Shown here piece after piece: positions 3,171 to 46,600 of a stretch of DNA of 46,600 bases (positions within the stretch are counted from its first letter, which is position 1; every line of letters begins with the position of its first letter). Both the position numbers and the translations under genes were made by a program. Source of the DNA: an uncultured Alphaproteobacteria bacterium (GTDB taxonomy: Bacteria > Pseudomonadota > Alphaproteobacteria > Rhizobiales > JACESI01); the NCBI GenBank assembly GCA_938034375.1, contig CALHLB010000128.1:1-46600 (forward strand), given 5' to 3'. Below the pieces are notes generated by a model, which was not told the origin of the DNA, did no database searches, and worked only from the letters and a program-made list of their open reading frames with translations.

Positions 3171-3221
3171 GATATAGTTAAACCACTTTAAAGTGATTAA
3201 GCGGTTTAACTATATCTTTTT
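3171..3221 (+). terminator. Rho-independent-terminator-like hairpin inside repeat copy A
   Basis: Perfect 14-bp arms GATATAGTTAAACC (3171-3184) / GGTTTAACTATATC (3203-3216) followed by TTTTT; downstream of the dnaJ-like CDS but AT-rich stem. Confidence 0.5.
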
Positions 3222-3290
3222 GTTTACGCTCATCTTTTCTTTTAAAATGAAGATCATTTTAAAAGGATTACGCTATATAACTATTGTAAC
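3171..3290 (-). repeat. Interspersed ~110-bp repeat, copy A (inverted orientation)
   Basis: Reverse complement TATATAGCGTAATCCTTTTAAAATGATCTTCATTTTAAAAGAAAAGATGAGCGTAAACAAAAAGATATAGTTAAACC...AATCACTTTAAAGTGGTTTAACTATATC; aligns with 16366 and 40228 copies. Confidence 0.88.
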
Positions 3291-15303: not shown

Positions 15304-16369
15304 CATTGATATTTCCGGTAAGCGGGGGGGCTTTTCCTATCGGGTTGCTTTTCGCTCTTCAAAGCGTGTTACGGGTATTTTTGGTCGTTCTGGTGCTGGT
15401 AAATCAACAATCCTTGAAGCCGTATCGGGTGCATTGAAACCAGAAAAGGGGCATATTAATATTAATGGCGTATGTTATTGTGACCACTTAAAAGGGCATA
15501 ATCTTTCGCAACAAAAACGCAGAGTTGGGTATGTTTTTCAAGATGCACGGTTGTTCCCACATATTTCTGTTCAAAGCAATCTAACCTTTTCCAGATGGGC
15601 TGGCAGACGTTCTTCTGGTGATATTGCTTTTGATGATGTGGTTGCTCTTTTAGGGCTTGAAGATTTTTTAGAGAGGAAACCAGATAGTTTATCTGGTGGG
15701 GAAAAACAACGGGTTTCTATTGGTCGCGCTCTTCTTTCTAATCCGCATATTTTATTGATGGATGAACCACTTTCCGGTCTTGATTATCAGCGTAAAAGCG
15801 AGATTATGCCTTATCTTGAGGCGATGATTAAAAATTACGATTTACCTGTTTTATTTATTAGTCACGATTTAAATGAGATTGCACATTTGTGTAGTCATCT
15901 TGTTTTACTTGAAAAAGGCCGCGTTCAAAAATCTGATGATATTGGGATTGTTTTTCCTTTAATCGAAGGGCGCTTTGCGGGGAATTACCAGTTGCCAAGT
16001 GTTTTGATTAAAGCTTCTTTTCAAAAACAGGATGCTGTTTATTCTATTACATGGCTTAAAGTCGGAACTCAAAAAATTGTCGTTCCAGATCTTCTGCCTG
16101 AAAGTGAGGAAGACCATACACTCCGTATTGAAGCTGATAATGTTGCTTTGTGCCTTAGTAAGCCAGAAGGTCTTACTATACAAAATGTTTTAAAGGTCGA
16201 GGTTATGGATTTTAGGCGCGCTGGAGATTCTTCTGTTGATATTGTCTTGAATCTTGAAGGTCAATGCCTCATGGCGCGTATTACTCGCAAGGCTTTTGAA
16301 GACCTTGACCTTAAAAAAGGTCAAGATGTTTATAGCCTGATTAAATCTGTTGCTGTTGCTGTTTTATAG
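15296..16369 (+). CDS. modC: molybdate ABC transporter ATP-binding protein
   Basis: FGRSGAGKSTILEAVSG, LSGGEKQRVSIGRALL, ILLMDEPLSGLD, C-terminal TOBE-like domain; 8-bp overlap with modB. Confidence 0.94.
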   Translation: MIDIDISGKRGGFSYRVAFRSSKRVTGIFGRSGAGKSTILEAVSGALKPEKGHININGVCYCDHLKGHNLSQQKRRVGYVFQDARLFPHISVQSNLTFSRWAGRRSSGDIAFDDVVALLGLEDFLERKPDSLSGGEKQRVSIGRALLSNPHILLMDEPLSGLDYQRKSEIMPYLEAMIKNYDLPVLFISHDLNEIAHLCSHLVLLEKGRVQKSDDIGIVFPLIEGRFAGNYQLPSVLIKASFQKQDAVYSITWLKVGTQKIVVPDLLPESEEDHTLRIEADNVALCLSKPEGLTIQNVLKVEVMDFRRAGDSSVDIVLNLEGQCLMARITRKAFEDLDLKKGQDVYSLIKSVAVAVL

Positions 16370-16469
16370 TATAAGCCTTATAAAATGATGATTATTTATA
16401 AGAAAAGCTGAGCGTAAACAAAGATATATAGATAAAATATATAATCATTTATAGTACTTTAGCTATATA
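16366..16469 (+). repeat. Interspersed ~110-bp repeat, copy B
   Basis: TATAGTATAAGCCTTATAAAATGATGATTATTTATAAGAAAAGCTGAGCGTAAACAAAGATATATAGATAAA...TTTAGCTATATA. Confidence 0.85.
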
Positions 16470-18629: not shown

Positions 18630-18712
18630 ATTATAGCGTAGGCCTTTTAAAATGAGTATCATTTTCAAATAAAAGCTGATCGCAAATAAAGAACTATAAC
18701 GTAAGCATTATA
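18630..18712 (+). repeat. Interspersed ~110-bp repeat, copy C (divergent/truncated 3' half)
   Basis: ATTATAGCGTAGGCCTTTTAAAATGAGTATCATTTTCAAATAAAAGCTGATCGCAAATAAAGAACTATAACGTAAGC. Confidence 0.75.
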
Positions 18713-18715
18713 GGA

Positions 18716-20322: not shown

Positions 20323-20435
20323 GCGCTTTAGAGCGTGTTTCTCATAAGTGAATTAACTTATGAGATAAAAACTCGCGTAAGAATAAAGGCTTAGCGCATA
20401 ACAGATGAATTCATGAAAATGCATCATGCGCTAAG
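20323..20435. repeat. Intergenic palindrome cluster (REP-like)
   Basis: TCTCATAAGT(GAATTA)ACTTATGAGA perfect 10-bp arms at 20340-20365; CTTAGCGCAT...ATGCGCTAAG perfect 10-bp arms at 20390-20399/20426-20435. Confidence 0.7.
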
Positions 20436-40227: not shown

Positions 40228-40332
40228 TTATAGCGTAAGCCTTTTAAAATGATGATCATTTTAAAAGAAAAGGTGAGTGAAAAAAAGATATAGCTAAATT
40301 GTAATATCACTTTAAAGTCGTTTGGCCATATA
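40228..40332 (+). repeat. Interspersed ~110-bp repeat, copy D
   Basis: TTATAGCGTAAGCCTTTTAAAATGATGATCATTTTAAAAGAAAAGGTGAGTGAAAAAAAGATATAGCTAAATTGTAATATCACTTTAAAGTCGTTTGGCCATATA. Confidence 0.88.
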
Positions 40333-45896: not shown

Positions 45897-46600
45897 TTAC
45901 CGATCTTCACCAGTTGGAGGAACGGCAGAGGCAGGCCTTATTCTGTTTTCTTTATTGGCCTTATCGCCAAAGGCTTCTTTTGCAATTTCACCAATACCGG
46001 AAAGGGAACCTAAAAGCGCTGTTGCTTCAACGGGTAGCATAAGCACTTTTTGATTTTTTGCTGTTGCAAGACTTTCAATGGCGCCAACATATTTGTTGGC
46101 AACAAAATAATTAACGGCTTGCATATCGCCATTGGCAATTGCATCAGAGACAACAGCGGTTGCCTTTGCTTCAGCTTCAGCTTCTCTTTCACGTGCCTCC
46201 GCATCACGAAATGCTGCCTCTCTGCGGCCTTCTGCTTCAAGGATTAAACTTTGTTTTTCCCCTTCTGCTTTCAAAATATCAGCTTGTCGTAAGCCTTCTG
46301 CTTCAAGGATTGATGCGCGTTTTTCACGTTCAGCTTTCATTTGGCGGGCCATGGAATCGACCAAATCACGCGGAGGGTTAATATCCTTGATTTCAATGCG
46401 TGTAATCTTAACACCCCATGGTTGGGCTGCTTGATCAACAACGTTTAAAAGGCGGGCGCTAATCTCATCTCTATTGGATAAAAGATTGTCTAAATCCATC
46501 GAACCCATAACGGTTCTAAGGTTGGTCATGGTGAGATTTAAAATCGCATTTTCCAGATTATTAACTTCATATGCTGCGGCTGGAGCATCAAGAATTTGAT
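45897..46600 (-). CDS. SPFH/band 7 (stomatin/QmcA-like) protein, N-terminus beyond window
   Basis: [48 protein letters not shown]; frame stays open to 46600 ([31 protein letters not shown]). Confidence 0.93.

Follow-up and report, generated by a model that had tools for sequence, protein, structure and literature searches.

Few intergenic sequences of rhizobia, Brucella and their relatives are as common as repeats of the RIME1, Bru-RS and CIR type. The CcrM-associated intergenic repeats (CIR) of Caulobacter are about 110 bp long and consist of two arms and a linker, with TA at the ends (PMC2229807, summarizing Chen & Shapiro 2003). In its CIR entry that review scores terminal inverted repeats (TIRs) as "-" and the target-site duplication (TSD) as "?"; it calls the two-arm-plus-linker anatomy peculiar to CIR and states that more information is needed on CIR mobility. 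Bru-RS1 and Bru-RS2 of Brucella measure 103 and 106 bp (PMC10800456; originally Halling & Bricker 1994). RIME1, the Rhizobium-specific intergenic mosaic element, is listed with "unknown function" (Osteras et al. 1995, cited in PMC2573895). The RUP element of Streptococcus pneumoniae is 107 bp long and present in 108 copies, and its mobilization by IS630-Spn1 has been proposed (PMC2229807). REPs are 20-40 bp long and carry GTAG or CGTC tags (PMC3733652). A 2024 review of MITEs mentions CIR and leaves IS630, Brucella and RIME unmentioned (PMC10969869).

Here we describe an AT-rich repeat from an alphaproteobacterial draft genome (2.51 Mb, 179 contigs, completeness 98.4%). To judge from its sequence, the repeat is very probably a non-autonomous MITE of the IS630 (Tc1/mariner-type) family and an AT-rich branch of the RIME1/Bru-RS/CIR repeats. 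The window, the whole stretch of 46,600 nucleotides that was analysed, is contig C128 of this genome. A sequence-only reading of the window had proposed four dispersed copies of a two-hairpin repeat. All four were found, each within a few bases of where they had been placed (Table 1).

Table 1. Repeat copies and hairpins in the window.
Feature	Position	Strand	Structure and context
Copy A	3173..3277	-	Full-length type I (TCC/GATG); DnaJ-domain gene on one side, cobS on the other
Copy B	16365..16467	+	Full-length type II (GCC/GCTG, CTTATAAAA arms); converging ABC-transporter ATPase and aminotransferase genes
Copy C	18632..18713	+	Chimeric/truncated: 5' half of the element joined to what remains of a short, divergent hairpin
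Fifth repeat	20329..20433	+	Type III sister subfamily (TTAGAGCGTGTTT...GCGCTAA); top window match of model R2
Copy D	40229..40330	+	Full-length, linker minus 3 nt; the copy reported by the sequence-only reading
Hairpin 1 of copy D	40242..40267	+	Arms CTTTTAAAATGA / TCATTTTAAAAG
Hairpin 2 of copy D	40284..40331	+	Closing arm GTCGTTTGGCCATA = right terminal inverted repeat

Two of the four copies needed correction, and one relative had been overlooked. Copy A had been extended to 3290, which overshoots its end by about 13 bp. Copy C is correctly located but is not a whole member, since only its first ~65 bp are family sequence. The fifth repeat in Table 1 is a diverged relative. In an unfiltered covariance scan with model R1, which was built from 27 copies of this genome including A, B and D but not C, the E values were 1.4e-20 for A, 1.8e-14 for D, 1.6e-11 for B and 2.5e-8 for C. 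Copy D sits downstream of the minus-strand gene purD. At copy B the stop codon of the ATPase gene (TAG, 16367-16369) falls within the first bases of the element; the ATPase proteins of congeners terminate a few residues differently from the window ATPase. Elsewhere in the window, at 46227-46339 on the minus strand, an ORF contains three imperfect repeats with a spacing of 33 bp.

The genome holds far more copies than the window. A first BLAST search gave 51 matching pieces in about 40 distinct places, and R1, the genome-wide covariance scan that had been suggested as a check, finds 111 matches at E<=1e-3 in the 2.5 Mb. The 13-bp left end TATAGCGTAANCC, with at most one mismatch, matches the genome 127 times, compared to 11 times for a reversed control pattern. 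The earlier view that this is a dispersed repeat and not chance AT-richness thus holds. Full-length copies are 76-96% identical (mean 86% in the first alignment), whereas their flanks are only 27-29% identical; hence the element has sharp boundaries. Conservation ends abruptly at TATAGC on the left and GCTATA on the right, and TA dinucleotides border the copies. Among 71 full-length copies 68 are intergenic, three overlap the end of an ORF and none lies within one. The genes around copies are arranged in tandem (35), convergently (13) or divergently (8), with no strand preference.

The element is about 105 bp long and TA-bounded, with the order TATAGCGTAA(T/G)CC / hairpin 1 / GAAAAGNTGAGCG / TAAACAAA / hairpin 2 / GCTATA. 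Hairpin 1 has the form CTT(T/A)TAAAATGA-N3-5-TCATTTTA(A/T)AAG. It is followed by GAAAAG(A/C)TGAGCG, then by the linker TAAACAAA and then by hairpin 2, whose 3' arm, GG(T/C)TTAGCTATA or AGCTTGGCTATA, forms the right end of the element. Left and right end form an imperfect inverted repeat of about 26 bp (TATAGCGTAATCCTTTTAAAATGATC versus TATAGCTAAACCATTTTAAAATGATT) with the pattern TA-TAGC...TA(A)AATGAT.

Copies fall into subfamilies. Type I carries the signature TCC...GATG. Type II carries GCC...GCTG, often together with CTTATAAAA arms and a right half CCAAAATTCAT...ATGAGCTTGG, and mosaics of types I and II occur. Type III has the form TTAGAGCGTGTTTCCCATAAGTGAATTCACTTATGGG...GCGCTAA (TTAGAGC...GCGCTAA); it is represented in the window by the fifth repeat and in the genome by about 35 matches of model R2 (E<=1), which is described below. 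There are also 34-bp end-to-end deletions (L042, L058), tandem and chimeric copies, and solo palindromes of 36 and 51 bp, in which the left end is paired with a reverse-complemented version of itself (L161, L162, L033, L060). Three type I copies near contig ends (L025, L028, L030) share the internal position, after GATATAGCTAAA, where their similarity breaks off.

The evidence for mobility comes from the ends of the element and from its insertion sites. A search of the genome found a single DDE_3 (PF13358) gene, carried on contig C167 by an IS630-type element of 874 bp with TATAGC ends (L031 1099-1972). Its frame is split, its domains are PF13358 and PF01710 (HTH_Tnp_IS630), and a copy of the MITE ends about 17 bp away. 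The left end of this IS630 matches the type II left end with a score of 18.5, compared to a maximum of 13 among 2000 shuffles that keep TATAGC (0/2000). For the right end, 15 of 2000 shuffles did as well, a modest agreement between AT-rich sequences (p about 0.01-0.02). No intact partner transposase was found among the 179 contigs of the draft genome. Decisive here is another alphaproteobacterium (G638), which carries an intact IS630 of 870 bp with a single ORF of 275 amino acids and the same two domains, PF13358 DDE_3 and PF01710 HTH_Tnp_IS630. Of the 30 bases at the right end of this IS630, 28 agree with the right end of a MITE copy (best of 71 copies for shuffles: mean 17.7, maximum 24); at its left end 22 of 30 bases agree with the left end of a MITE copy (shuffle maximum 21). 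A related IS630 transposase element in a third genome (G097) bears TATAGCCAAACC ends; for a second G097 insertion sequence (L178) the comparison of ends gave no significance beyond TATAGC. A cognate transposase with matching ends, one of the checks proposed for a MITE-like element, can therefore be named.

The same holds for the target-site duplication. In one locus (L156, contig C98 8907-9140; ~208-440) a type III copy has inserted at TA within one of type II. The layout is AAAAAGA-TA[GAGCG...GCGC]TA-GCGCTAAAATTC, and when the flanks are joined with a single TA the type II arm is restored. The duplication of TA is thus read from one clean nested case in the sister subfamily, together with the TA borders of copies elsewhere. 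At the site of copy B the ATPase and aminotransferase genes are adjacent and the element is absent in two congeners (G001, G003); with a DNA identity of 66-71%, congeners are too diverged to give an exact empty site. A different element lies at contig ends (L031 2530-2641; flank of L013), with the end GGCTCAGGACCTATTAAT and the transposase start MSDLFWLSDRQLSLIEPYFP; one of its copies interrupts a MITE copy. It seems to be of the IS5/IS427 type.

We propose that an IS630 transposase bound the MITE ends and excised a unit of about 103 bp, which would then have reinserted at TA in intergenic DNA, so that about 110 copies accumulated. Activity probably ceased with the break-up of the one IS630 transposase gene that the draft genome was found to contain, in keeping with the observation that no two aligned copies are identical. 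The copies are old, and what the element records is past mobility. The palindromes were probably kept either because a folded or cruciform form aided transposition or as harmless hairpins near gene ends, although this is a guess.

The sequence-only reading took a compensatory swap in the arms of hairpin 1 (CTTTTAAAA/TTTTAAAAG versus CTTATAAAA/TTTATAAG) as a sign of selection on a fold or of a palindromic (MITE/REP-like) element. The swap is genuine: the pair is T-A in 55 copies and A-T in 9, so that 64 of 71 copies are paired compared to 49.2 +/- 2.3 when the arms are dealt at random. An outer helix, P1, had been overlooked. The T or G of TAATCC/TAAGCC pairs with the A or C of GATG/GCTG, as T-A in 33 and G-C in 28 copies (63/71 paired versus 33.8 +/- 4.1 shuffled). 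Pairs of hairpin 2 also covary in the 71 full-length copies of all subtypes. These counts ignore kinship: the subfamilies share ancestry, and few independent events underlie the covariation in this genome. Within type I, the commonest subtype, covariation is not above that of shuffled controls. Covariation above that of shuffles is seen across the subfamilies and, as shown below, across the order, but not within type I. Selection acting on the fold is plausible, and arm-to-arm copying between the palindromes could mimic it; transposition could also give rise to the covariation, and so could common descent or the repair of quasi-palindromes by template switching.

The strongest alternative concerns the origin of the complementarity. 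Template switching during replication could copy changes from one arm of a quasi-palindrome to the other, and the arms would then match by mutation instead of selection. Arm copying predicts near-perfect palindromes such as the 36- and 51-bp solo forms of the left end (L161, L162, L033), and the compensatory changes are few and common to subfamilies. Yet the P1 pair spans hairpin 1, its bases are about 35 nt apart, and it still covaries between 33 and 28 copies; the GC-rich relatives moreover show several independent forms of P1 around an unchanged hairpin 1. We regard template switching as a possible but rather unlikely source of the complementarity.

Less likely still is that the repeat is a structured RNA or DNA element selected at many loci for a regulatory role (small RNA, mRNA 3' stabilizer, terminator or protein-binding site), with mobility being only its means of spread. 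The covariation of P1, hairpin 1 and hairpin 2 and the changes on both sides of pairs in the GC-rich relatives would fit such a role. So would the matches of one GC-rich relative (L088) to the Brucella small RNA families RF02600 and RF02599, both below the gathering cut-offs. However, the whole window has no Rfam match at gathering cut-offs, and type I on its own covaries no more than shuffles. The position relative to genes is not conserved, truncated, chimeric and tandem copies are numerous, and copy D persists despite the deletion in its linker. A regulatory RNA at fixed gene positions is rejected, as the copies show no orientation bias.

The repeat had also been likened to MITEs or REPs. 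The MITE half of this comparison stands, with imperfect TIRs, TA duplication and a cognate IS630. The REP half does not. REP-type palindromes moved by a RAYT (Y1-HuH) transposase, or palindromic elements like the RPEs of Rickettsia, are likewise short, intergenic and present in many copies, but we consider either identity highly improbable. REPs of 20-40 bp with GTAG/CGTC tags, as characterized in the REP literature cited above (PMC3733652), differ from a TA-bounded element of ~105 bp with TATAGC ends, TA duplication and IS630-like termini; wrong size and wrong ends reject a REP/RAYT identity. In contrast to RPEs, no full-length copy lies inside an ORF. Finally, AT-rich palindromes arising by chance, which a GC content of about 26% in the element against 42% in the window might suggest, are refuted by the copy number (111 collinear copies here and none in three congeners with the same model) and by the excess of left-end matches, and can be dismissed with near certainty.

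We return to the IS630-mobilized MITE and its relatives across the order. Model R1 has no match in the three congeners and finds four copies in a genome of another family (G010). Its weak matches in three further genomes (G005, G017, G054) are GC-rich CTAGAGC...GCTCTAG elements. In plasmid and phage collections the AT-rich type gave only short, chance-like matches. In a collection of genome contigs, from which the source genome was possibly excluded, the linker core gave five single matches in unrelated MAGs, not far from the roughly two expected by our own estimate. Within the sample, hardly any copies of the AT-rich type lie outside the source genome.

Among 150 genomes of the order, by comparison, 49 carry GC-rich CTAGAGC...GCTCTAG repeats. 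Named plasmids that carry them come nearly all from Hyphomicrobiales (one is labelled Roseateles), with Sinorhizobium, Bradyrhizobium, Rhizobium, Bartonella, Mesorhizobium, Ochrobactrum and Shinella as hosts. The bacterium that carries the AT-rich element is accordingly a presumed member of Hyphomicrobiales. The plasmid copies of Sinorhizobium, Rhizobium, Mesorhizobium and Bradyrhizobium are presumably RIME1.

Model R2 was trained on 18 GC-rich copies, all of them foreign to the source genome, and the window was scanned unfiltered. The fifth repeat (20328-20434) ranks first in the window at 7.6e-8, followed by copies A (1.9e-4), C (0.002) and D (0.006). R2 aligns type I and type II copies in register from end to end, and reciprocally R1 detects the type III fifth repeat at 7.7e-4. 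The anatomy of P1, hairpin 1, AAACAAA linker and hairpin 2 is common to the AT-rich element and the GC-rich repeats. Because this internal order is shared, we class the element as an AT-rich branch whose ends are altered (TATAGC for TAGAGC). P1 takes several forms in the GC-rich relatives (GCATGATC/GATCATGC, GCGTATTC/GAATACGC, GCACTTC/GAAGTGC and others), and of the 34 pairs in their complete fold 22 are changed on both sides (0/500 shuffles).

The GC-rich type may have moved in the same way. In GC-rich genomes TAGAGC/GCTCTA brackets 13 of 29 IS630 loci, compared to a mean of 1.26 for permuted 6-mers; hence IS630 probably accounts for the GC-rich repeats as well. A broader proposition is that all RIME1/Bru-RS/CIR repeats are MITEs mobilized by IS630, with ends that track their own IS630 clade (TAGAGC or TATAGC) and a fold kept by compensation. 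For this proposition we find the case evenly balanced. If it were true, and the fold had been kept across the whole order, the fold would have a conserved role in mobility or for the host.

By anatomy, with published descriptions as the basis of comparison, the repeat appears to belong with CIR, RIME1 and Bru-RS. The earlier reading, which had not recognized it as a named family, needs amending: the repeat is an AT-rich relative that has diverged from these families, yet it is not CIR proper. Like CIR, it is an alphaproteobacterial, strictly intergenic repeat of about 110 bp with two long inverted-repeat arms, a linker and TA termini. Unlike CIR, it has a GANTC site in the loop in only 7 of 71 copies, where shuffling predicts 16.6. 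Twelve of the 18 GC-rich relatives have GANTC, ten of them in the same loop, and neither of two type III copies checked has it. Since this hallmark is missing, we class the repeat as an AT-rich variant. The anatomy seems to outlast the sequence of the ends as well as the GANTC site, and CcrM methylation is therefore an unlikely purpose of the fold in the AT-rich branch. A further difference from the CIR entry in PMC2229807, as far as that entry goes ("-" for TIR, "?" for TSD), is that for the present element we can show TIRs, a duplicated TA and a partner in the IS630 family.

The repeat resembles the Bru-RS elements, as these are described, in its size, palindromic halves, intergenic position and high copy number; it differs in being AT-rich and in its ends, TATAGC instead of the CTAGAGC that L088 has. 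With RIME1 it shares the character of an order-wide intergenic palindromic repeat of rhizobia, but not the sequence of ends and arms. From the IS630 family (PF13358 and PF01710), with which it has the TA target and terminal repeats in common, it is set apart as a MITE without transposase, in which palindromes and linker, about 50 bp in all, fill the space between the ends.

The mechanism is an ordinary one, and the repeat represents a largely species-confined, AT-rich burst of a known class of repeats, with direct evidence on how the class moves. The ends of the element, a nested insertion at TA and an intact autonomous relative now link one branch of this class to a particular IS630 clade and provide a concrete pair of transposase and ends. 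The host is unrelated to that of RUP, and we claim no relation in sequence. In mechanism, however, the element is like RUP and IS630-Spn1: a MITE of about 105 bp in about 110 copies, with TA targets and ends shared with IS630.
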